From assembly GCA_021781555.1 (NCBI GenBank), contig JAJXWQ010000033.1, forward strand, positions 1 to 39,369: a stretch of DNA of 39,369 nucleotides, given 5' to 3'. Positions 1,323 through 29,146 of the stretch are shown here, in pieces (position 1 is the first letter of the stretch; each line of letters begins with the position of its first letter). The notes under the pieces were generated by a model that saw only the letters and a list, made by a program, of their open reading frames with translations, did no database searches and was not told the DNA's origin. A program made the position numbers and the translations under genes. The stretch is from a bacterium. Lineage in GTDB: Bacteria; Cyanobacteriota; Sericytochromatia; S15B-MN24; VGJW01.

Positions 1323-3164
1323 CTACTCGACCGTCACGGACTTGGCCAGGTTGCGAGGCTGGTCGATGTCCTTGCCCAGGATCCGAGCGGTATAGTATGC
1401 CAGCAGCTGCAGGGGCACGACGTTGATGACCGGGCTCACGAGCTCGGAACAGCCCGGGACGTAGATCACGCGGTCCACGTGCGCCGTGATGGCGCGATCG
1501 CCCTCCGTCGCGATGGCGATGACGGTGCCCCGCGCCGCACCCTTGCGGCTCTTGGCCTCCTGGAGGTTGGATATGACCTTGTCGTAGGTCGAGCTGCGCG
1601 TGGCGAGCGCCAGAACGGGCATGGCCTCGTTGATCAGCGCGATCGGCCCGTGCTTCATCTCGCCGGCCGCGTATGCCTCGGCGTGGATGTATGAGATCTC
1701 CTTGAGCTTGAGGGCGCCTTCCATGGCCGTGGGGAAGTTGATCCCGCGCCCGAGGAAAAGGAAATGCTGCGACAGGGCGAAGGTCTCGGCCAGGGCCTGG
1801 ACCTCGTCGGCCGTCTCCAGGGTCTGCTTGACCAGGCCCGGGAGGCGCTTCATGTCGTTGATGAGACCTGCGACCACCGCGTCCGCGAGTTCCTCGCGAA
1901 CCTGGCCGAGGTGGGTCGCCAGCAGCAGCAGCGCCGCGACCATGCTGGTGTAGGCCTTGGTGGAGGCCACGCTGATCTCGGGACCGGATTGCAAGGAGAG
2001 CACACCATCGACCTCGCGGGACATCGTCGAACCGATGGCGTTGATGATGCCGAGCGTCTTGGCCCCGAGCCGCCGGCACTCGCGCAGGGCGGCAAGGGTA
2101 TCGGCCGTCTCGCCCGATTGCGAGATCGCGATGGCCAGCGTGCGGTCCGTGATCACGGGGTCCCGGTACCGGAACTCCGATGCGAAGTCGACCTCGACAG
2201 GTAAACGTGAAAGCCGCTCGATCATGTACTTGCCGACCAGCCCCGCGTAATAGGCGGTTCCGCACGCCACGATGACGATGCGGTCTATCGACCGCAGCTC
2301 GGCCTCAGACAGTCCGAGATCGCCCAGGAAGACGCGGCCCTCGCGCTCGTCGAGCCGCCCGCCGAGCGTGTTGGTGAGACTCGAGGGCTGCTCGAAGATC
2401 TCCTTGAGCATGAAGTGCTCGTATCCGGCTTTCTCGGCGGCAGCGGGATTCCAGTCGATCCGATGGACCTCCTTGACCTTGGGCAAACCCTCGTGGTCGA
2501 AGACGCGAACACCCTCCTTGCTGACCACGACGACCTCGCCATCGTCCAGGTAGACGACCTGGCGGGTGTAGTCCAGGATCGCCGTGACGTCTGACGCCAG
2601 AAAGTGCTCCTCGCTGCCCAGGCCCGCCACGAGGGGTGCGCCGTGGCGCAATCCCACCACCTTGCCGGGCTCATCCCGGTGCATGAACACGGTGGCAAAG
2701 GTTCCTTCGATGCGTCGGTAGGCGGCCAGGACCGCGGCGAAAAGGTCCCCCGCGTAGAGGGACTCCACGAGGTGCGCCAGCACCTCGGTATCCGTGTCGG
2801 ACTCGAAGCGATGTCCCGCGTCGGAAAGCTCGCGCTTGAGGTCGAGGTAGTTCTCGATGATTCCGTTGTGCACGACCACGATCTGGCCGCTGCAATCCGT
2901 GTGCGGATGGGCGTTGAAGGCCGTGGGACGTCCGTGGGTGGCCCAGCGCGTGTGGCCGATTCCGACGTTGCCTGTCAGCGGGGCGCGCTTGAGGCCCTCC
3001 TCGAGATTGTTGAGCTTTCCCACCTCGCGCCGAAGCACGAGCTCGCCGCCGTCAGCGATCGCCAGCCCCGCTGAATCGTAGCCCCGATACTCCAGCCGGC
3101 GCAGGCCATGCATCAGGACCTCGCTGGCTTGCTGGTTTCCTACATATCCGACGATTCCACACAC
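1323..3164 (-). CDS. glmS: glutamine--fructose-6-phosphate aminotransferase (isomerizing)
   Basis: At 613 residues this is a normal-length GlmS. It converts fructose 6-phosphate and glutamine to glucosamine 6-phosphate, the entry step to UDP-GlcNAc for peptidoglycan and lipid sugars. The N-terminal glutaminase starts CGIVGYVG, with the catalytic Cys right after the initiator, and has RWATHGRP and HNGIIENY. Two SIS sugar-isomerase domains follow (ACGTAYYAG and SQSGETADT motifs), and the C-terminus ends in the typical KSVTVE. Translation starts at GTG, which is correct because Cys must become residue 1. The start codon overlaps the palindrome ACTTGGCCAAGT (3163-3174). I see no glmS ribozyme core in the leader. 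Confidence 0.97.
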   Translation of the reverse strand: MCGIVGYVGNQQASEVLMHGLRRLEYRGYDSAGLAIADGGELVLRREVGKLNNLEEGLKRAPLTGNVGIGHTRWATHGRPTAFNAHPHTDCSGQIVVVHNGIIENYLDLKRELSDAGHRFESDTDTEVLAHLVESLYAGDLFAAVLAAYRRIEGTFATVFMHRDEPGKVVGLRHGAPLVAGLGSEEHFLASDVTAILDYTRQVVYLDDGEVVVVSKEGVRVFDHEGLPKVKEVHRIDWNPAAAEKAGYEHFMLKEIFEQPSSLTNTLGGRLDEREGRVFLGDLGLSEAELRSIDRIVIVACGTAYYAGLVGKYMIERLSRLPVEVDFASEFRYRDPVITDRTLAIAISQSGETADTLAALRECRRLGAKTLGIINAIGSTMSREVDGVLSLQSGPEISVASTKAYTSMVAALLLLATHLGQVREELADAVVAGLINDMKRLPGLVKQTLETADEVQALAETFALSQHFLFLGRGINFPTAMEGALKLKEISYIHAEAYAAGEMKHGPIALINEAMPVLALATRSSTYDKVISNLQEAKSRKGAARGTVIAIATEGDRAITAHVDRVIYVPGCSELVSPVINVVPLQLLAYYTARILGKDIDQPRNLAKSVTVE

Positions 3165-3560: not shown

Positions 3561-3675
3561 CGGGCCAGTAGATAAGGGGTTCCCTGGGTGAGGACGCCCA
3601 GGCGGACTGTCGGCCGGATTCGTGGCCAGACTGACCGCCCGGCGTGACCTTCCGTCGGAAGGATACGTTCCAGAG

Positions 3676-4668
3676 ATGCAACTGCGCTCGTTCCCGGTCG
3701 TGGCCCGGACGACTGAAGAATTGCGCCCTCCCCTGGCGCGGCGGACGCTCTCGCTGTGGCGCCTGATGCTCGCGCTCGGGCGGCCCTCGAGCTGGGTGCT
3801 GCCGATGATCGCCCTGGCCAGCGGCGCGCTCGCGTCGGGAGCCGTGACCCTGGACCGGGATCACGCGTTGCGCCTGGTCTGCGGATTGCTGCTGGCAGGC
3901 CCGTTGATGGGCGGAATGAACGCCGTGGTAAACGCCCTGTTCGACCGCGACATCGACGCCATCAACTGCCCCGATCGCCCTCTGCCTTCCGGCCAGATCT
4001 CGACCAACGCGGTCATCGCCCAGATGGGCTTGATGAGCCTGGCCATCCTCCTCTACGCCCATTTCCTCGAGGCGGGCCTCGGTACGCACCTGGATTCCCG
4101 GCTCGGGCTCGGGACCTCGAATGCCGGTGGCATCTTCCTCCTGGTCGCCCTCACCTTGGGCCTCATCTTCGCGGAGAACGCCCCGCCGCTCTCGCTGCGA
4201 CGCAACACCTGGCTGTCGGGCGTGTTCTTCGGAGTCATCGCCGTGCTGCTGCCGTGGCTCATGGGCAACCTCCTTTTCGGCCCGCTGACCCTGGCTTCAA
4301 CCCTTTACGGAGTGTCCTTCGGCCTGGGCGCCGTGGGCCTGCTGATCCTCCTGGCCCTGCGCAAGGTCGAAGGCGACCGCCGCGTGGGCGTCCGCTCCCT
4401 GTCTGCCTTGTTGGGCCCGGAGGTGGGAGTTGCGATCGGGGCGATCATGGTCGACACGGCATACCTGGCGGCAGGGATCCTGATGGCGGGCCAGCGCTGG
4501 GTCTCGGTTGCGGCCCTGGGTGTCCTGCTGGCCCTGCAGGTCGCGCTCCAGGTCTGGTTCCTGCGCCGCCGCGTGCCGCCGCGGTGGACCCTCGCCGCGG
4601 CCATCGCGCTGTTCGGCGCCGGGATGATCGTCTCGGCCGCGACCTTGATGTCGCGAACCTCCCTCTAG
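3676..4668 (+). CDS. ChlG/BchG-like UbiA prenyltransferase with altered Asp motifs
   Basis: The 330-residue polytopic membrane protein belongs to the UbiA superfamily and follows (bacterio)chlorophyll synthase closely: GPLMGG, then DRDIDAINCPDRPLPSGQIS, an APPLSLRRNTWL block, LPWLMGNLLFG, and KVEGDRRVGVRSL. Those enzymes attach a prenyl tail to chlorophyllide using prenyl diphosphate and Mg2+. The ND pairs that open both metal-binding motifs are altered here (Asn86-Ala87 and Leu226-Ala227), while the downstream Asp90, Asp92, Asp94, Glu232 and Asp234 remain. No other pigment gene is present, so the substrate may differ. I chose ATG 3676 because AAGGA lies upstream; GTG 3622 is possible. The stop codon is the CTAG end of repeat copy 4. 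Confidence 0.8.
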   Translation: MQLRSFPVVARTTEELRPPLARRTLSLWRLMLALGRPSSWVLPMIALASGALASGAVTLDRDHALRLVCGLLLAGPLMGGMNAVVNALFDRDIDAINCPDRPLPSGQISTNAVIAQMGLMSLAILLYAHFLEAGLGTHLDSRLGLGTSNAGGIFLLVALTLGLIFAENAPPLSLRRNTWLSGVFFGVIAVLLPWLMGNLLFGPLTLASTLYGVSFGLGAVGLLILLALRKVEGDRRVGVRSLSALLGPEVGVAIGAIMVDTAYLAAGILMAGQRWVSVAALGVLLALQVALQVWFLRRRVPPRWTLAAAIALFGAGMIVSAATLMSRTSL

Positions 4669-4994: not shown

Positions 4995-5723
4995 ATGGTC
5001 AACACGCTGGTCTACTGGGCAGGCAGGCCCATCGGCATGCGCCGCGAGGCGACGCTCGGACACCGGGCGCAGGCTGCTTTGCTGTCGATCGCGCTCGTCG
5101 TCTTCATGGCGCTCGCGACCGTGCGTGCCTTGCAAGATCGCCCGGACACGATGGCGATCCCGGCGCAGGTTCACCACGCCGTGGCGGCGCACCGGCAAGT
5201 CGCAGCCCAGCATCCTCTGAAGCTGCGCGGGGACTACCACCAGGCCGTCGCGGCGCCGCCGATCTACCCCTATTCTCTGCAAATCCGGCACGTGGCGCGC
5301 AGGTTCAATCTTCCGGCCGACCTCGTCGCCGGCGTGGTCCGTACGGAGTCGCAGTTCAATCCGCGTTGCTTGTCACCGGTCGGGGCCGAGGGACTCATGC
5401 AGTTGATGCCTTCGACGGCCTGGCTCGTGGCCCGCAAGCTGGGCTGGCACCACTTCGACCTCTTCAATCCAACCGACAATCTGACCCTGGGCACCTACTT
5501 CCTCAAGGACCTTCTCAACCAGTACGGCGATCTCTCGACGGCCTTGAGCTACTACAACGCCGGGCAGTGGGGCATCGTCAGCCGCGGGGTCTACCGCAAC
5601 CGGGGCTACATCCGCGCCGTGCTCCGCCACTATCACGCTTATGGCGCCGAGCACCAGGCGTTGCTCACGGTCAAGCCCGTCCTCGCCCGACTCGAGGTCC
5701 GACCGATCCTGGCCGCCGAGTAG
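4995..5723 (+). CDS. membrane-anchored lytic transglycosylase
   Basis: The 242-residue protein has an N-terminal membrane segment (about residues 26-45) that should anchor it outside the cytoplasmic membrane. A C-terminal Slt/GEWL-like domain starts near residue 95. The catalytic Glu118 lies in RTESQFNP, followed by GAEGLMQLMPSTAW, the NLTLGTYFLKDLL block and ALSYYNAG, all hallmarks of lysozyme-like lytic transglycosylases. These cleave the MurNAc-GlcNAc bond of peptidoglycan to form 1,6-anhydro products. The ATG is preceded by GGCAGGAG at good spacing. The gene stands alone; its role in growth, division or envelope-machine assembly cannot be read from the context. Confidence 0.92.
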   Translation: MVNTLVYWAGRPIGMRREATLGHRAQAALLSIALVVFMALATVRALQDRPDTMAIPAQVHHAVAAHRQVAAQHPLKLRGDYHQAVAAPPIYPYSLQIRHVARRFNLPADLVAGVVRTESQFNPRCLSPVGAEGLMQLMPSTAWLVARKLGWHHFDLFNPTDNLTLGTYFLKDLLNQYGDLSTALSYYNAGQWGIVSRGVYRNRGYIRAVLRHYHAYGAEHQALLTVKPVLARLEVRPILAAE

Positions 5724-6098: not shown

Positions 6099-6160
6099 GG
6101 GCACGCGCCGGGCACCCGAGGTAACATGGCGGTTTACCGCAAAAAGAGGTGCAAACGACC

Positions 6161-8911
6161 GTGTTCGATCGCCCGATCGCCAGCGACCGCAAAGATGACT
6201 GGCAGGCGCGCATCCCGAGCCTGCTCCTGACCGTGCCGAGGCCGGCCCGCTACCTCGGCAACGAGTGGGGAGCCGTCCGCAAGCCCTGGGCCGAGACCCC
6301 TGTCCACTGGGCTCTGGCCTTCCCGGATCTGTACGACGTCGGCATGAGCCATCTGGGCAGCAAGATCCTGTACCAGGTCATCAACCGGATGCCGCACGCG
6401 CTGTGCGAGCGCGTCTATGCCCCCGCCCCGGAACTGGAAGCCCTCATGCGCCGCGAGGGCATTCCCCTCTTCGCACTGGAATCCCGGCGCCCCCTCACCG
6501 ATTTCGACGGGATCGGGTTCTCGCTCTCCTACGAGCTCACCTACACCAATCTACTCAACATGCTGGCGCTGGCCGGCATCCCGGTGGAACGCAGCGAACG
6601 CGATCAGTCGACGCAGCCGAACGGCAGCCCCTGGCCGCTCGTCTTCGCGGGCGGGCCCAATGCCTTCAACCCCGAGCCTTTCGCTGATTTCGTCGACTTC
6701 GTCGTGGTGGGCGATGGCGAGGAGGTGGTGTCCGATCTTGCCGACGCCTTCGTGGCACTCAAGGACGGCAGTCTCGGCAGGGAAGAGCTTCTGCGGGGCC
6801 TCGCGCAGATCCGCGGCGTTTACGTGCCGCAGTTCTACGACTGCGAGTACGAGGGCCCCGGTCGCCCGATCCGGCGCTGGATCCCCAAGGACGGCGCTCC
6901 GTTCCCCGTACGCAAGAACGCCATCCGGGAGCTTTTGGCGGAGTACCACCCTACCGACGCTCCGGTCCCTTACCTGCCGGTCATCCACGATCGGATTCCC
7001 ACCGAGGTCCGGCGGGGCTGCGATGCAGGGTGCCGCTACTGCCAGGCCGGCTTCATCTACCTGCCGGTGCGCGAGCGCAAGGCCCAGGATGTCGTCGACC
7101 TCACGAGCGCGACGATCCGCTGCACGGGCTACGAGGAGTACAGCCTGTTCTCGCTTTCGAGTGGCGACTACACGCAATCGGCCGCGGTCGTCAAACCTCT
7201 CACCGAGGCCAACAGTCCGCTAGGGGCCAGCATGAGCCTGCCCAGCCTGCGTGTGGACTCTTTCTCGCTGCAGATGGCGACGGCCGCTCAGCACCTTCGC
7301 AAGAGCACCTTCACCTTCGCACCGGAAGCGGGGTCCCAGCGGCTTCGCGACATCATCAACAAGAACATCACCGAGGACGAGATCCGCTACGCCATTCGCG
7401 AGACCTACCGCGCTGGTTGGCACACGCTCAAGCTCTACTTCATGATCGGCCTTCCGGGCGAGACGCTCGAAGACGTGGCCGAGATCGTGGCCCTGGTCGA
7501 CAAGATCAAGCAGGACTGCGCCGAGATCCGCAGGCAGGACGCCGGCACGGAGGGCGAGGCCCGGCAGTCCGGCAAGCGGCATCCGCCGATCCGCATCCAC
7601 CTCACCATCTCGACCTTCGTCCCCAAGCCCCACGTGCCCTTCCAGTGGCGGGCGCAGGATCGCCTCGAGGACGTCGCAGCCAAGCAGTCTCATCTCTTTT
7701 CCGAGATGAAGAAGCGCGGGGTGAAGGTCAGCGCGCACGACCGCTACACCAGCGAACTCGAGGCCGTGCTCTCCCGGGGCGATCGCCGGGTGGGCCGCCT
7801 GGTCAAGCGAGCCTGGGAGCTCGGCGCCGCCCACGACGCCTGGTCCGAGCATCACCGCCCTGCCCTCTGGCGCCAGGCTGCTCTGGAAACCGGCATCGAC
7901 TTCGAGTTCTACGCCCACAGCCGCTGGAATTACGACTGGATCCTGCCCTGGGATGTCATCGATTCGGGCGTCAACAAGCGCCACAACCGCTACGACGACG
8001 AGCAATCCGAGCGGCGCATCACGCTGGATCACTGCTCCCGGAAATGCTGGGGCTGCGGGGTTTGCTTCAAGTTCGACACCGGCCACGACCTTGCCGGCAG
8101 CGCCTTGCCCAAGATCGATTGCTCCGCTCCGCCGCCGGCCCCCGACTGGGAAATCTCCGCCCATCACCCCCCCCACGACAAGGTCCAGCGGCTGCGCTGC
8201 CGGTTTCTCAAGGACGGCGACCTGCGCTTCATCAGCCACCTCGACCTCATGCGACTCTTCGAACGCGCCCTGCGCCGGGCCGCTCTGCCGGTGGCATTCA
8301 GCCAGGGCTTCAATCCCCACCCGGCCCTCGAGTTTGCGGCGCCACTGGCGCTGGGTGTGACCAGCGAAGCCGAACTCGTCGATATCTACCTGGGCCAGGC
8401 GGTCGCTCCCGCAACCTTCATCCTCCGGCTCAACTTGGCTCTCCCGGAGGAGGCAAGGATCGTCGAATGCCAGGAGCTTCCGATCGGCGGGCCATCGTTG
8501 ATGGCCCTGGTCGACGAGGCCAGCTACCGCGTACGCCTGGCCGGCCCCGTCCCACGCGAGCTGTGGCGGGAGTTCACGGACCGGCAGGAAATCCCCTTCG
8601 TCAAGTCGGGCAAGACGGGCAGCCGCACCGTGGACCTGCGCCCGCTGATCCGGGCCGTCGTCCCCGAGGACGATCGAACGGTCCGCCTACGGCTGGCGTC
8701 GGGCAGCCGGGGGAACGCGAAGCCTGACGACGTGGTCTCGGCCATGGGGGAGTTCCTGGGCCAGGAGCTGCGGACGATCGCCATCCGGCGACTCGAACTC
8801 CTCGTCCTCGACGCGCCCGCCCTTGCCCCGGTGCACGGGGCGCCGCTGCCCGGAGACCCGGCCGACGAAGCAGAAGGCAGGGCGCTTGCCCCTGCCGGCG
8901 ATCAGGCCTGA
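6161..8911 (+). CDS. TIGR03960-type radical SAM protein fused to DUF2344
   Basis: The protein has about 916 residues. The N-terminal part resembles a B12-binding-like region (YDVGMSHLGSKILY, then GGPNAFNPEP). The radical SAM core carries the 4Fe-4S triad Cys287, Cys291 and Cys294 (CDAGCRYC), then FMIGLPGET. A second cysteine-rich patch (CSRKCWGCGVC) lies near residue 630. The C-terminal DUF2344 (TIGR03936-like) domain begins LRCRFLKDGDLRFISHLDL. This fused arrangement is widespread in bacteria, but its reaction is unknown to me. I prefer GTG 6161, about 11 nt after AAAGAGG; GTG 6149 overlaps that site. The gene follows a terminated leader, which may regulate it, and copy 5 of the repeat lies just downstream. 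Confidence 0.9.
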   Translation: MFDRPIASDRKDDWQARIPSLLLTVPRPARYLGNEWGAVRKPWAETPVHWALAFPDLYDVGMSHLGSKILYQVINRMPHALCERVYAPAPELEALMRREGIPLFALESRRPLTDFDGIGFSLSYELTYTNLLNMLALAGIPVERSERDQSTQPNGSPWPLVFAGGPNAFNPEPFADFVDFVVVGDGEEVVSDLADAFVALKDGSLGREELLRGLAQIRGVYVPQFYDCEYEGPGRPIRRWIPKDGAPFPVRKNAIRELLAEYHPTDAPVPYLPVIHDRIPTEVRRGCDAGCRYCQAGFIYLPVRERKAQDVVDLTSATIRCTGYEEYSLFSLSSGDYTQSAAVVKPLTEANSPLGASMSLPSLRVDSFSLQMATAAQHLRKSTFTFAPEAGSQRLRDIINKNITEDEIRYAIRETYRAGWHTLKLYFMIGLPGETLEDVAEIVALVDKIKQDCAEIRRQDAGTEGEARQSGKRHPPIRIHLTISTFVPKPHVPFQWRAQDRLEDVAAKQSHLFSEMKKRGVKVSAHDRYTSELEAVLSRGDRRVGRLVKRAWELGAAHDAWSEHHRPALWRQAALETGIDFEFYAHSRWNYDWILPWDVIDSGVNKRHNRYDDEQSERRITLDHCSRKCWGCGVCFKFDTGHDLAGSALPKIDCSAPPPAPDWEISAHHPPHDKVQRLRCRFLKDGDLRFISHLDLMRLFERALRRAALPVAFSQGFNPHPALEFAAPLALGVTSEAELVDIYLGQAVAPATFILRLNLALPEEARIVECQELPIGGPSLMALVDEASYRVRLAGPVPRELWREFTDRQEIPFVKSGKTGSRTVDLRPLIRAVVPEDDRTVRLRLASGSRGNAKPDDVVSAMGEFLGQELRTIAIRRLELLVLDAPALAPVHGAPLPGDPADEAEGRALAPAGDQA

Positions 8912-10649: not shown

Positions 10650-11021
10650 ATGATCGAATCGAGCGAGGCGCGGGGCTTGCTTGAGAGCGAACGGCAGCGG
10701 CTGAGGCGTTTGCTCGGCTGGGCCGAGGACTCGATCCGGGACCACGAGCGCCAATCCGTCATGGAGTCCGGGCCACGATCTGGAGACGACGAATTCGCCG
10801 ACAACGCAACCGAGACCTTCAGTCTGGAGCTAGACGCCACGCTGCGTCAGCGGTTCACCGAGAGCCTGGCCAGCGTGGAGGCGGCGCTCCAGCGACTCGC
10901 AGCCGGTGAGTACGGGCGCTGCGCCCGGTGTGGGGAGGTCATCCCGGCGGGGCGGCTGCGAGCCGTGCCCCAGACTCCGTTCTGTGCGCGATGCGGCCAG
11001 GAGCAGGAGATCGAGGGCTAG
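10650..11021 (+). CDS. DksA/TraR-type C4 zinc-finger protein
   Basis: The 123-residue protein has a long N-terminal coiled-coil hairpin with an acidic turn near residues 46-54 (GDDEFADNATE). A C-terminal four-cysteine zinc finger follows (Cys91, Cys94, Cys112, Cys115; CARC...CARC). This is the DksA/TraR architecture, whose members insert the coiled coil into the RNA polymerase secondary channel and tune initiation, often with ppGpp. The tip does not match the exact DxxDxA of E. coli DksA, so ppGpp synergy is uncertain. The ATG follows an AGGG site. The stop codon TAG is part of the CTAG opening repeat copy 7. The gene is divergent from the 107-residue protein gene. Confidence 0.85.
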   Translation: MIESSEARGLLESERQRLRRLLGWAEDSIRDHERQSVMESGPRSGDDEFADNATETFSLELDATLRQRFTESLASVEAALQRLAAGEYGRCARCGEVIPAGRLRAVPQTPFCARCGQEQEIEG

Positions 11022-11125
11022 AGTACTCCCGGTTTGAATGGATCGAGCCCGATGAGTCAAACGGGGCCCGGTTGCGCAGCGAAGCGACCGTGCAGAGGGC
11101 CCCGTTCAAACTGAAAAAGGGCTAG
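11018..11125 (+). repeat. CTAG element copy 7 (full length, 108 bp)
   Basis: A full-length copy: CTAG (11018-11021), AGTACTCCCG, GTTTGAATGG, the small hairpin ATCG-AGCC-CGAT, then AGTCAAACGGGGCCC, the core, GGGCCCCGTTCAAAC, TGAAAAAGGG, CTAG (11122-11125). The first CTAG holds the stop codon of the DksA-like gene. The two ends are inverted repeats with equal spacing between CTAG and GTTTGAA. Confidence 0.92.
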
Positions 11126-11261
11126 GCCCAGGCGTCCGGGGAAGACGGCTGTCGCTGCCTGGCCGAGCGGGTAGCCAAGATTCGGGCCCGCCGCCCGCTG
11201 CCTGCTACCGAAAGGCGTGCTAGGATGGCTCGTTGCGCCCTTCTTACAGAACGACATCGAC

Positions 11262-12314
11262 ATGCGACTTGGCATCATCGGCTGGCCCTTGGTCGGCAAG
11301 ACCACGGTCTTCAACGCGCTCACCCGCTCGGCGGCCAGGACCGGGTTCGGCGCCGGCTCCGGAGCGCCGAACGTGGCGATCGTCCGCGTTCCTGACGACC
11401 GCGTCGAGCGGCTCGCCGCCCTGTTTTCGCCCAAGAAGACCACCTTTGCCACGGTCGAGTACATCGACCTTCCCGGGTTCGAGCGCGGCAAGGGCAAGGA
11501 CTCCGACCAGTTCCTGACCAACGCCCGCAAGGTCGATGCGCTGGTGCAGGTGGTGCGAGCCTTCGTGGACGACAACGTCCCCCATGCAGAGGGCTCGGTC
11601 GACCCACGGCGCGATGGCCGCCTGATGGAGGAAGAGCTGATTCTCGCCGACCAGATCACGGTCGAGAAGCGCCTCGAGAACATCGCGGCCCAGGCCAAGC
11701 GCGGCAAGAAGCCCGAGAGCCCCGACGAGCAGCCCGCCCTCGAGAAGGCCCTGGCGCACCTCGAATCCGTGCGCCCCTTGCGTACCCTCGAGCTTTCGAG
11801 CAGCGAGGAGGTCGCGCTCCGCGGTTTCGCATTCCTGTCCCAGAAGCCGCTCCTGGTCGTGCTCAACATGGGCGAGGACCAGATGGCAGCTCCGCCGGCC
11901 CTGGCCTCGGATGCCCCGGTGCTGGCCGTCTGCGGCAAGCTCGAGGAGGAGCTCGCCCAGCTCCCGGACGCAGAAGCCGCCGAGCTCATGGCGAGCTACG
12001 GCATCGCCCGGTCCGGCCTGGAGCGAGTCATCCAGGCCTCGTACGATTTGCTGGGCCTGATGAGCTTCTACACGGCCGGCGACGACGAGGTGAAGGCCTG
12101 GACCATCCGCAAGCAGTCCCCTGCGGTCGAAGCCGCCCGCACCATCCACTCCGACATCGCCCGCGGCTTCATCCGGGCCGAGGTGGTCTCCTACGACGAC
12201 CTCATGGAACTCAAGACCTTCCCCCGGGCGCGGGAGGTCGGTAAGCTCCGACTGGAGGGCAAGGACTACGTCGTCCAGGACGGCGAGGTCGTGCACTTCA
12301 GATTCGCCGTCTGA
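11262..12314 (+). CDS. YchF/OLA1-like P-loop GTPase/ATPase (divergent paralogue type)
   Basis: The 350-residue protein is an Obg-related P-loop NTPase. G1 is GWPLVGKTT (near residues 7-15), the G3 region is EYIDLPGF, and the base-recognition motif is NMGED rather than NKxD; the NxxE form is typical of YchF and goes with ATP preference. The C-terminal TGS/DUF933 region (AWTIRKQSPAVEAARTIHSD, then VQDGEVVHFRF) is complete. The canonical YchF G1 (GLPNVGKST) differs, so this may be the second, YchF-related branch. YchF proteins bind ribosomes and affect stress responses. The ATG at 11262 starts the conserved strand; its ribosome site is poor. A strong terminator overlaps the stop codon. Confidence 0.88.
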   Translation: MRLGIIGWPLVGKTTVFNALTRSAARTGFGAGSGAPNVAIVRVPDDRVERLAALFSPKKTTFATVEYIDLPGFERGKGKDSDQFLTNARKVDALVQVVRAFVDDNVPHAEGSVDPRRDGRLMEEELILADQITVEKRLENIAAQAKRGKKPESPDEQPALEKALAHLESVRPLRTLELSSSEEVALRGFAFLSQKPLLVVLNMGEDQMAAPPALASDAPVLAVCGKLEEELAQLPDAEAAELMASYGIARSGLERVIQASYDLLGLMSFYTAGDDEVKAWTIRKQSPAVEAARTIHSDIARGFIRAEVVSYDDLMELKTFPRAREVGKLRLEGKDYVVQDGEVVHFRFAV

Positions 12315-25579: not shown

Positions 25580-26494
25580 ATGGCAGCGCGGAGGTTCCGG
25601 ATCATCGTCAACCGCAGCTCGCGACGCGGCGGGAAGGACCGGTTGCTCGACATCCTGCGCGCCGAGTTCGCAGGGGCGCAGGTCGACCTGTGCGTCCCGC
25701 AGACTTACGAGCAGACGGTCGCGGCCGCCGCCTCCGCAGCCGCGGATGGTATCACCGACCTGGTCATGGTGGGTGGTGACGGCACCCTCAACATCGCCGT
25801 CAACCAGATCGCCGGCACCGGGGTCAAGCTCGGCATCATTCCCACCGGGACGGCCAACGACCTGGCCACCCATCTCGGCATTCCACTCGACGTGCGAAAG
25901 GCCTGCCGAGTGATCAAGGCCGGCGGGAGCCGCAGGATCGACGTCGTCGATTGCAACGGCAAGTTCTTCGCCACTGCGGGGGGGATGGGCGTCGTCAGCT
26001 CGGTGGCCACCGGGGTCAATCGATTCAAGGCTTCGTCCGGCTACGCCCGCACGATCGCACGCATCTTTGGAAGCCTGGTCTATGTCCTCTACAGCTTCGT
26101 CCTGCTGGCGTTCGGCCGCGATCTCGAGCAACCCGTCGAGGTCAGCTGCGACGGCCGGACGATCGGCACGTTCCCATCCATCGCGCTCTTCATCTCCAAC
26201 CAGCCGACGATCGGCAAGACCGTGATGCCTTGCCCGCAGGCCCGTCCGGACGACGGCCAGCTCGCGGGCTTGGTCATGAGCGGGGGCAGCCGCCTGGCGA
26301 GCATCCTGACGGTCGTCTTGATGTCCCTGCGTGGCGCGCACCGCCACCGCCGGGATGTCCAGGGTTTCGATGCGCGCGAGATCGCCGTCCGCTCGACCGA
26401 AAGGCGCGTCTTCATCGGAGACGGCGAGGTCCTGGCGCACACCCGGACGCTTTGCTTCGCCGTCCACCCTGCAGCGCTGTCGGTCTGCGCCTGA
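25580..26494 (+). CDS. diacylglycerol/lipid kinase family protein
   Basis: The 304-residue protein has the DAGK catalytic fold: IIVNRSSRRGGK at the N-terminus, the nucleotide motif GGDGTLN near residue 66, and PTGTANDLATHLGIP near residue 92. The C-terminal beta domain ends with a FIGDGEVLAHT block equivalent to the D-G-E motif of YegS/DgkB. It should phosphorylate a lipid hydroxyl such as diacylglycerol or a sphingoid/undecaprenol-like alcohol, using ATP at the membrane. A strong ribosome site (AAGGAGCGAGGG) precedes ATG 25580. HMG-CoA reductase follows, consistent with a lipid-related block. Confidence 0.88.
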   Translation: MAARRFRIIVNRSSRRGGKDRLLDILRAEFAGAQVDLCVPQTYEQTVAAAASAAADGITDLVMVGGDGTLNIAVNQIAGTGVKLGIIPTGTANDLATHLGIPLDVRKACRVIKAGGSRRIDVVDCNGKFFATAGGMGVVSSVATGVNRFKASSGYARTIARIFGSLVYVLYSFVLLAFGRDLEQPVEVSCDGRTIGTFPSIALFISNQPTIGKTVMPCPQARPDDGQLAGLVMSGGSRLASILTVVLMSLRGAHRHRRDVQGFDAREIAVRSTERRVFIGDGEVLAHTRTLCFAVHPAALSVCA

Positions 26495-26636
26495 TTCGTA
26501 CACCCGCAGGGGTTCCGGCCCCTCGAACTGCAGCCAGGGTTCCGCGCAGGAGCTCCCGCGTCCTGCGGATGCATCTCGATGTTTTGACCGTGCCATACCC
26601 TTTGGCTTCCAGCGGCGCACCGGGTACAACGCGAAG

Positions 26637-27869
26637 ATGAGTACCCCGCCACGCATCCACTCCGGCCATGTCCCGTTCCAGGGGCGCTACACCGCGGATG
26701 CCCTCGAAGGGCGAAGAGGCTGGGTGGCCGAGCAAACCGGAGCCGAGCTCTCGGCGCTGGCGGGCGCGCCTCCCCCCGCCAGCGCGGTGGAAGGCAACGT
26801 CGAGAACCATGTGGGCTACGTCCAGCTCCCGGTGGGAGCGGCCGGCCCCTTGCGAATCGACGGGGAGTTCGCGCAGGGAACCTTCTTCGTCCCGCTGGCG
26901 ACGACCGAGGGAGCGCTGGTGGCATCGGCATCCCGCGGCGCCCGGGCCATCACCGAATCCGGCGGGGTGCGCGTACGGGTGCTCAGCGACCAGATGATGC
27001 GCGCTCCGAGCTTCATCTTCCGATCGCTGGTCGACTCCGTGGCCTTTGCGAGCTGGGTACGCAAAGAGCAAGGCGCCATCCGGGCGATCGCCGAGTCACA
27101 GACCCGCCACGGCAAGCTCTTGTCGTGCGATCCCACGGTCCTGGGCGATACCGTCTGCCTCTTGATGTCGTACGACACCGGAGATGCCTACGGCGCCAAC
27201 ATGGTCATGCGGTGCAACTGGGCCGTCTGCAACTACATCGTTTCGACCTTTCCTGCCCAGTCCGGTCGGGAGATTCTCGACCACTACGTCGACTCCAACA
27301 TGGGCGCCGAAAAGAAGATCTCCTTCTTCATGTACACGACCTCCATGCGCGGCAAGCGCGTCGTGGCCGAGGCCAAGCTCGACCGGGGCGTGATGGCGAG
27401 CGTGCTCCGGACCACCCCGGAGGATCTCTTCGAGGCCTTCGTGGCGGGGATCACGCCGACGGCGGCGGCGGGCAGCATGGGAGTCAACGTCAACTTCGCA
27501 AACATCGTGGCCGCGATCTTCACCGCATGCGGACAGGACATCGCGACGGTGCCCGAAAGCGCGCAGGGCCAGCTCAACTTCCGGCTCGAACCTGACGGCC
27601 TCTACTTCGGGTGCCTCATGCCCAACCTCGTCGTCGGCACGGTGGGGGGCGGCACGGCCCTTCCAGCTCAGAGCGCCGCGCTCGACATGCTGGGTTGCAG
27701 GGGGACGGGCGGAGCGAAGAAGCTGGCCGAGATCGTCTGCGCCACCTGCCTTGCGCTCGACCTCTCGACCTTCTCGGCCATCTGCTCGGACCACTTCGTT
27801 CGCGCCCACGAGAAGCTCGGCCGCAACCGCCCCAAGACCGGGCCGCTCGGACTCCCCCCCCAGCTTTGA
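26637..27869 (+). CDS. hydroxymethylglutaryl-CoA reductase (class-I-like)
   Basis: The 410-residue protein is a full HMG-CoA reductase: ENHVGYVQLPVGAAGPL, catalytic Glu91 in TTEGALVAS, Asp183 in DAYGANMV (usually DAMGMNMV), the Lys226-Lys227 pair in EKKISF, GRGK-like RGKRVVAEA, GTVGGGT, and catalytic His391 in RAHEKLGRNRP. It reduces HMG-CoA to mevalonate, committing carbon to isoprenoids by the mevalonate route. The DAYGANMV variant and an insertion-free length suggest an unusual subfamily. No other mevalonate gene is in the window. It lies upstream of the UbiA-like/dikinase operon but is separated by a hairpin, so supply of isoprenoid precursor to that pathway is an inference. Confidence 0.9.
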   Translation: MSTPPRIHSGHVPFQGRYTADALEGRRGWVAEQTGAELSALAGAPPPASAVEGNVENHVGYVQLPVGAAGPLRIDGEFAQGTFFVPLATTEGALVASASRGARAITESGGVRVRVLSDQMMRAPSFIFRSLVDSVAFASWVRKEQGAIRAIAESQTRHGKLLSCDPTVLGDTVCLLMSYDTGDAYGANMVMRCNWAVCNYIVSTFPAQSGREILDHYVDSNMGAEKKISFFMYTTSMRGKRVVAEAKLDRGVMASVLRTTPEDLFEAFVAGITPTAAAGSMGVNVNFANIVAAIFTACGQDIATVPESAQGQLNFRLEPDGLYFGCLMPNLVVGTVGGGTALPAQSAALDMLGCRGTGGAKKLAEIVCATCLALDLSTFSAICSDHFVRAHEKLGRNRPKTGPLGLPPQL

Positions 27870-27911: not shown

Positions 27912-28201
27912 CATAGTAGCGCCGTGGCACGAAGCCTGTCCGGGACTTCGCGCCGGGTGTGCCCCTTCTTGAGAGGTGTCCGCGGGGTGCGCCTCCCGAA
28001 GACACCTTCAGCTTACCGCGTCATCGTGGTCCCCCCAGCAGGCCCCATCACAGCTGGCCCGTGAGCTTCGTCACATGCCTTCGCTTCCCCGCAAGAACCC
28101 GAGCCAGGGGGCTTGCCACCCCTTTTCGAAGGCGGCAACCGTCAGGCGGGGTATATTGCGCCGGTGATGCCGGAAGTGGCCGGCAGCGGAGGAGTCGAAC
28201 C
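27912..28201. other. 290-bp gene-free stretch before the UbiA/dikinase operon
   Basis: No protein gene is convincing. It has an AGGTGTC/GACACCT hairpin (about 27974-28008), a GGGG/CCCC hairpin followed by TTTT (about 28107-28126), and TATATT (28152-28157) that could be the -10 box of the operon. No clear -35. Confidence 0.4.
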
Positions 28202-29146
28202 GTGGCCTCGAGTGCCGTGCGCATGCCCTTCTGGTCCCGCTGGAACAGCTACCAGGCGGAGCGCTTCCCGCTGGCTTCGCATACGGTGGCGATCGCCTTG
28301 CTGTTCGGCAGCACCTGGTTCGCGGCGCAGGCCCTCACCTCCACGGGCCGGCTGCAGATCGGCCCACGCGGGCTGGCGGCGTTTGCAGCCACCTTCCTCA
28401 CGCTGCTCCTCTTGCGGGTCTTCGACGAGTTCAAGGATTTCGATGACGACCGCATCAACCATCCCGACCGCGTGGTCCAGCGGGGTGTCGTCACCCTGGG
28501 CGAGCTGCGCGGGCTGGGCTGGATCGTCGTCGCCGTGCTGGCCACGCTGGCGGCGATCCTCGGGGTCGGGCCGGCGATCGCCTTCGGGGCGGTCTTCGGG
28601 TTTGCCCTGTTGATGCGGGTCGAGTTCTTCGTTCGGGACTGGCTGCGGGGCCACGTCTTCACCTACGCCCTCACCCACCAGGGCATCACGCCCCTGATCT
28701 GCCTGTACATCGGCACGGTATCGCTGGGTAGCTGGACGGCCCTACCCCGGGGCTTTCTGGCGGTTCTCGGGGCAGCAACCGGCGTCGGCCTGTGCTTCGA
28801 GCTGTCGCGCAAGTTCCTGGCCCCCGAGGACGAGAAGCCGACCCTCGATACCTACACGCGCAGGTTTGGCCCCCGAGGCGCTTCCTGGGTGGGCTTCGCC
28901 ACTCTGGTGGTAGCTGCCGGGTGTTCCGCGTGGCTCGTCCACACGCTGGCCTTGCCTGGCTGGGTCGGCGGTCTCATCGGCCTGGCGACGATCGTAGGAG
29001 CGGCGGGCTACGCCAGGTATGCAGCCAGCCCCACGGCCCGCAACGCCAGGGGGGTCAAGGATCTGGGCACGCTCGCCGTCGTGCTGCTGGAACTATTCCT
29101 GGTCGTCGGGATGGTCGCCGCCCGCGGCGTGACGTGGGGCAACTGA
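28202..29146 (+). CDS. UbiA family prenyltransferase-like membrane protein
   Basis: The 314-residue protein has about eight membrane helices and UbiA-type acidic motifs. The first is RVFDEFKDFDDDRINHPDR, followed by VVQRGVVTL, matching the DExKDxxxDRxxHPxRxxxRG form of a bacterial UbiA branch. The second region is ELSRKFLAPEDE, then DTYTRRFG. It should transfer a prenyl group from a diphosphate donor to an unknown acceptor in the membrane. GTG 28202 is preceded by GGAGGAG at 7 nt, which decides the start; the open frame extends upstream without coding character. Its stop is 2 bp before the dikinase ATG, so it is the first gene of a tight operon. Confidence 0.78.
   Translation: MASSAVRMPFWSRWNSYQAERFPLASHTVAIALLFGSTWFAAQALTSTGRLQIGPRGLAAFAATFLTLLLLRVFDEFKDFDDDRINHPDRVVQRGVVTLGELRGLGWIVVAVLATLAAILGVGPAIAFGAVFGFALLMRVEFFVRDWLRGHVFTYALTHQGITPLICLYIGTVSLGSWTALPRGFLAVLGAATGVGLCFELSRKFLAPEDEKPTLDTYTRRFGPRGASWVGFATLVVAAGCSAWLVHTLALPGWVGGLIGLATIVGAAGYARYAASPTARNARGVKDLGTLAVVLLELFLVVGMVAARGVTWGN

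Follow-up and report, generated by a model that had tools for sequence, protein, structure and literature searches.

The closest described relatives of the protein reported here are the chlorophyll synthases. In ChlG, as set out in a 2026 review of its structure that draws in part on a modelled ternary complex (PMC13297055), N89 and D93 bind one Mg, with the second Mg on D219 and D226; K39 and K221 touch the diphosphate, and stabilisation of the reacting carbon falls to Y159 and Y181. The Mg ligands of AfUbiA are N68 and D72 in motif 1, together with D198 and D202, and alanine at either motif-2 aspartate renders GPP binding 45- and 21-fold weaker without abolishing it (PMC4106721). In E. coli MenA, motif residues including the motif-2 Asp and Tyr139 equivalents are essential for transfer (PMC4106721).

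The essentially complete lack of photosynthesis genes in Sericytochromatia and Vampirovibrionia has been taken to mean that these lineages were never photosynthetic (PMC6349859, PMC8245535), and loss of photosynthesis in both has also been argued for (PMC8047818). In the open-licence literature searched, no chlorophyll-synthase relative was found for Sericytochromatia. Here such a relative is described from the window, that is, the whole stretch of DNA analysed, which is one entire contig of 39,369 bases from a 3.8 Mb genome in 181 contigs. This genome is assigned by its kinships to the Sericytochromatia, a non-photosynthetic class next to the cyanobacteria. That an order including Ca. Tanganyikabacteria and an S15B-MN24 genome conserves a gene of the chlorophyll-synthase lineage provides new evidence on whether photosynthesis was never had or was lost.

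Family assignment and chlorophyll pathway genes

The gene lies in a reading frame spanning positions 3622-4668 (Table 1), and its ATG at 3676 was taken as the start because the N-terminus that follows, MQLRSFP or MQLRSLP, is seen again in relatives from other families. The PF01040 profile places the protein in the UbiA superfamily (74.2 bits, above the curated cut-off of 34.2), and a simple Kyte-Doolittle hydropathy count gives nine transmembrane segments, where eight or nine are expected for the superfamily. Among NCBIfam models the highest scores were those of ChlG (182 bits, cut-off 313), BchG (162, cut-off 212), the ChlG equivalog (134, cut-off 436) and BchK (106, cut-off 494), all below their cut-offs, with the next family reaching only 52 bits; the same ranking, with ChlG/BchG models first, was obtained for every homolog tested. 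The best PDB match is the cyanobacterial chlorophyll a synthase ChlG (9sau/9sas, E 4e-33).

Table 1. Coordinates of the ChlG-like gene, its aligned active-site positions and its conserved neighbours (window positions unless a locus is named).
Feature	Position	Strand	Basis and remarks
glmS (glucosamine-6-phosphate synthase), divergent neighbour	1323..3164	-	Pfam, synteny
ChlG/BchG-related UbiA-superfamily membrane protein, 330 aa	3676..4668	+	ORF, family scans, homologs
R36, equivalent of ChlG K39 (diphosphate contact)	3781..3783	+	R, H or Q across the family; role from PMC13297055
Motif 1, N86-A-L-F-D90-R91-D-I-D94	3931..3957	+	Alignment; ligand roles from PMC13297055, PMC4106721
Loop E167-N-A-P-P-L-S-L-R175-R176	4174..4203	+	Alignment; E167 replaces ChlG Tyr159
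A189, equivalent of ChlG Tyr181	4240..4242	+	Alignment; tyrosine gone in all seven homologs
Motif 2, L226-A227-L-R-K-V-E232-G-D234-R235	4351..4380	+	Alignment
SLT-domain lytic transglycosylase, downstream neighbour, same strand as ChlG-like gene	4995..5723	+	Pfam, synteny
Lipid-A-disaccharide-synthase-related gene	L091:10370-11521 (306 bits), L090:403-1542, L087:13179-14237		TIGR03492

Genes of the chlorophyll pathway were searched for in 14 non-photosynthetic genomes, in which BchH (magnesium chelatase H) and AcsF gave no match and BchL short matches only, of about 20-37 bits; two cyanobacteria serving as controls returned full matches for all three. Short, low-scoring BchL matches are typical of P-loop proteins. 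An earlier note on this DNA had stated that no pigment gene lies in the window, which is borne out and extends to the whole genome, also devoid of BchH, BchL and AcsF; the genome search for pigment genes, a result of which might have spoken against that note, yielded no chlorophyll gene set. Since these three enzymes are absent, the organism cannot produce chlorophyllide by the known route that uses them. A working (bacterio)chlorophyll synthase fed with chlorophyllide from outside the cell would agree with the sequence kinship, but the lack of chlorophyll genes, together with the loss, detailed below, of the residues by which ChlG holds its second Mg and stabilises the transition state, makes it hardly credible.

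Relatives of a second tail-end enzyme of the pathway occur in the same order as ChlP/BchP-like geranylgeranyl reductases, at L140:1044-2360 (genome G008) and L141:3759-5126 (genome G007), with TIGR02023 scores of 275 and 234 bits, under the cut-off of 343. These reductases are nearer to cyanobacterial ChlP (30%, about 205 bits for the G008 copy) than to Roseobacter BchP (29%, about 130 bits). Both genomes carry the reductase but not the ChlG-like gene, and no pigment gene was found beside the reductases.

Active-site residues

The active site was assessed from published structures and alignments, in which the window protein and its homologs were compared residue by residue with ChlG (PDB 9sau/9sas) and three proteobacterial BchG. 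According to the earlier note, the Asn-Asp pairs that open both metal motifs are replaced by Asn86-Ala87 and Leu226-Ala227; the alignment confirms this against Asn89-Asp90 and Asn218-Asp219 of ChlG, and the loss is common to all seven homologs, which display A/A/S/A/S/A/A at the Asp90 position and LA/LA/AA/GT/FA/AG/DT at that of Asn218-Asp219. The two aspartate-rich motifs of the UbiA superfamily (NDxxDxxxD and DxxxD) are not intact in the window protein. Motif 1 lacks only its second residue, A87 standing in place of Asp90, with N86 and D90, the equivalents of Mg ligands in ChlG and AfUbiA, kept. Motif 2 lacks its Asn-Asp, with E232 and D234 retained in the window protein.

The observation in the earlier note is correct, with some refinements. 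In motif 2 the change removes a ligand (the D219 equivalent). The aspartate lost from motif 1 corresponds to no known direct metal ligand, because those of AfUbiA (N68/D72) and ChlG (N89/D93) match the kept N86 and D90. Motif 1 may thus still be able to hold a metal, and motif 2 is crippled. In addition to what the earlier note described, Tyr159 and Tyr181 of ChlG have given way to E167 and A189, and their equivalents are lost in all seven homologs; the aspartate of motif 1 matters less than the loss of these tyrosines. Regarding the ChlG active-site set as a whole, the window protein keeps N89, D93 and D226, has lost D219, Y159 and Y181, and bears Arg at both lysine positions, K39 and K221, so that the positive charge is retained.

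Several positions also vary from one member of the family to another. That of ChlG D226 is occupied by D, D, E, H, D, E and E across the seven homologs, D97 is altered in two members, the positions of N89 and K221 are variable as well, and the NxPxRPxPSG loop is missing in two members. Binding at motif 1 would not be uniform in the family, since in the G005 homolog N86 is replaced by Arg and D90 by Glu. All seven share a hydrophobic scaffold, a loop signature (N/D)APP(L/V)xLRR in which both Arg are invariant, acidic residues at D/E90 and E/D232, and eight family-wide invariant polar or aromatic residues that include the charged R91, R175, R176, R235 and E249. When the 70 columns invariant in the ChlG/BchG sample were considered, the 10 belonging to the active site proved less often retained (16 of 60 cells) than the remaining 60 (170 of 360 cells), with a Fisher p of 0.003 that serves as a rough guide, alignment cells being related by descent and hence non-independent.

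The donor or acceptor may have changed, as the earlier note proposed, but with a metal ligand of motif 2 and the two catalytic tyrosines gone, a protein that has ceased to act as a transferase is favoured. The chief rival to our reading is an enzyme that still transfers prenyl chains, to a new acceptor and with its metal site reorganised, for example with one Mg on N86/D90 and with E232/D234 standing in for the lost Asp. In agreement with it, the window protein still has N86, D90, D94, E232 and D234, the positions always acidic in the seven homologs would suit a metal site that is still in place, the motif-1 Asp that was lost is no direct Mg ligand in AfUbiA or ChlG, and purifying selection on the gene is strong (see below). 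Against it, Asp219 of motif 2, Tyr159 and Tyr181 are gone in all members, the motif-2 Asp and Tyr139 equivalents being essential in E. coli MenA, and neither D226 nor D97 is constant. We regard an active enzyme as somewhat doubtful, although a real contender.

Phylogeny, distribution and selection

In three multi-family UbiA trees the family groups with ChlG and BchG, with support for the joint group of 100/99, 73/90 and 89/91, apart from MenA-, UbiA- and CtaB-like groups and from archaeal DGGGP synthases. The family thus belongs, by sequence phylogeny, to the ChlG/BchG superclade, and the kinship put forward in the earlier note is upheld by family scans and trees alike, the UbiA phylogeny with ChlG, BchG and archaeal DGGGP synthases leaving the protein inside that superclade. 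Its position within varies between trees. In the three larger trees it branches outside ChlG+BchG (95/87, 69/90 and 83/84), in a reduced 15-row tree it falls with BchG at weak support (61/35), and in a tree built without the motif columns it falls with ChlG (64/54). AU tests rejected neither the grouping with cyanobacterial ChlG (p 0.11-0.37) nor, where tested, that with BchG (p 0.14). The phototrophs in these trees are Cyanobacteria and Proteobacteria, with Chlorobiota, Chloroflexota, Heliobacteria and Acidobacteriota missing, and branches are long. Since no order is rejected, branches are long and phototroph sampling is limited, 'ancestral' cannot be claimed; of the 'ancestral or repurposed branch' of the earlier note, the second term stands, the organism being without chlorophyll synthesis, and the first is one of several placements whose support ranges from 61 to 95 with sampling. 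As a separate observation, G007 carries two tandem divergent UbiA-family genes (L078, G007:C27:9117-9896 and 10822-11547) that branch together, outside the ChlG/BchG group.

The gene is present in seven genomes from three families of one order of Sericytochromatia, with identities of 92% in the genus, 42-56% in the family and 34-38% in the two other families. It was not found in two genomes of a fourth family of the order (G007, G008), in the other orders of the class or in the small-genome f9 group of the phylum; G016 gave a weak partial match of 29.6 bits. Matching genomes of the same phylum mostly carry one ChlG apiece, as in cyanobacteria. A scan of genome contigs with the single window protein gave no match, and one with the family alignment, which rests on one peptide pattern so that relatives without it escape, gave four loci, three of them titled as cyanobacterial/Sericytochromatia MAGs. 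Viral contigs searched with the family and with ChlG/BchG held no relative, none was found in phages, and the plasmid search returned only proteobacterial BchG and haloarchaeal DGGGP synthases.

This distribution bears on origin. There is a sizeable possibility that the ancestor of the order received BchG or ChlG from a phototroph by horizontal transfer, with a later change of function, rather than by inheritance from a common ancestor with Cyanobacteria: the gene is lacking in the remaining orders of the class and in the f9 group, which points that way, as does the weak BchG grouping in the 15-row tree, against which stand the larger trees that place the family outside ChlG+BchG, with no position significantly better. 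It appears unlikely that the common ancestor of Sericytochromatia and Cyanobacteria already had a chlorophyll synthase, or the direct forerunner of one, and that the protein came down from it vertically to become a non-catalytic envelope protein; if this did happen, the gene would preserve a molecular trace of a metabolism that prenylated tetrapyrroles, in a lineage that is often regarded as never phototrophic.

Open frames are intact in all seven genomes. Between the window gene and its genus relative, dN/dS is 0.047/0.47 = 0.10 (NG86) or 0.039/0.65 = 0.06 (YN00), below that of the adjoining transglycosylase gene. Such values between the two closest copies indicate that the gene is not decaying and is under purifying selection, and it is functional rather than a decaying relic. 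This agrees with the earlier note, which took the parallel loss in both motifs to point away from random decay. A functionless relic of chlorophyll synthase might account for the drift of active-site positions between members and for the NxPxRPxPSG loop lost in two, but seven intact frames in three families, a conserved place, the low dN/dS and family-specific invariant residues render it very improbable.

Gene neighbourhood and proposed function

The gene glmS lies upstream and divergent in six of the seven genomes, across a gap of about 0.2 to 4 kb, the 3 kb contig of the seventh (G001) stopping before the glmS position. The SLT transglycosylase gene follows downstream on the same strand, also in six of seven; the exception is G005, whose 12.8 kb contig yielded no such gene. 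A lipid-A-disaccharide-synthase-related gene, absent from the window, stands upstream of the ChlG-like gene in G002, G005 and G009 (the last being the copy at 306 bits), the three copies sharing 37-43% identity. G007, G008 and the other orders do have glmS, and neither the ChlG-like gene nor SLT was found beside it, within only about 2 kb upstream on the G007 contig; in G004 the contig stops inside the glmS match, which makes the absence there uninformative. The gene order, conserved across families, argues for vertical descent within the order. Neighbours such as glmS, the transglycosylase and the lipid-A-type gene belong to cell-envelope metabolism, suggesting an envelope role for the protein, although simple inheritance of the arrangement could by itself explain why these genes lie together, and the lipid-A-like gene does not adjoin the window gene.

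Elsewhere in the window, all on the + strand, there are an HMG-CoA reductase gene (26331-27869, 361 bits), after which comes a divergent UbiA-like prenyltransferase (27959-29146; PRK05951, 65 bits, below cut-off), and a single 920-residue ORF (6149-8911) for a radical SAM protein that combines Radical_SAM_N2 and DUF2344 domains.

Considering the residues and neighbours together, the protein may well be a membrane protein of the chlorophyll-synthase lineage that has been repurposed and binds a prenyl (di)phosphate without acting as a catalyst. The gene would have been inherited vertically and retained within one order of Sericytochromatia. Its product (i) would still fold as the nine-helix UbiA barrel, (ii) would still bind a prenyl (di)phosphate through the motif-1 site (N86, D90) and an Arg cluster formed by R36, R91, R175, R176 and R235, and (iii) would no longer transfer the prenyl chain. 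Polyprenyl phosphates are used in cell-envelope metabolism, and the likely task would then be a binding, carrier, sensor or scaffold role therein. Counting against a non-catalytic protein, the kept N86, D90, D94, E232 and D234 leave room for a one-metal or altered two-metal site. If the proposal is true, this would be a rare example of a protein of the UbiA superfamily that lost catalytic residues and was nevertheless maintained by selection, and one useful for separating prenyl-diphosphate binding from transfer.

Among known systems, cyanobacterial ChlG (PDB 9sau, 9sas; TIGR02056) shares with the window protein the DRDIDAIN...RPLPSG, APPLxL(K/R), LPW and VEGDR blocks and the Mg-1 ligands N89 and D93, the two being about 30-35% identical along most of their length; the protein differs from it in the loss of Asp90, Asn218, Asp219, Tyr159 and Tyr181, in scoring 134 bits against a 436-bit cut-off and in occurring without a chlorophyll pathway. 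Proteobacterial BchG (TIGR01476; plasmid-borne copies aligned) belongs to the same superclade, at 26-32% identity to the family, but keeps both Asn-Asp pairs and both tyrosines and adjoins photosynthesis genes. The archaeal DGGGP synthase (geranylgeranylglyceryl-phosphate geranylgeranyltransferase, PDB 6m31) is a near UbiA family (42 bits in NCBIfam, E 3e-4 in PDB) that falls outside the ChlG/BchG/Sericytochromatia group in the tree. With AfUbiA and E. coli MenA (PMC4106721) the protein has in common the motif-1 ligand equivalents and the basic diphosphate contacts, present as Arg, and it differs from E. coli MenA in missing the transfer-essential motif-2 Asp and Tyr139 equivalent.
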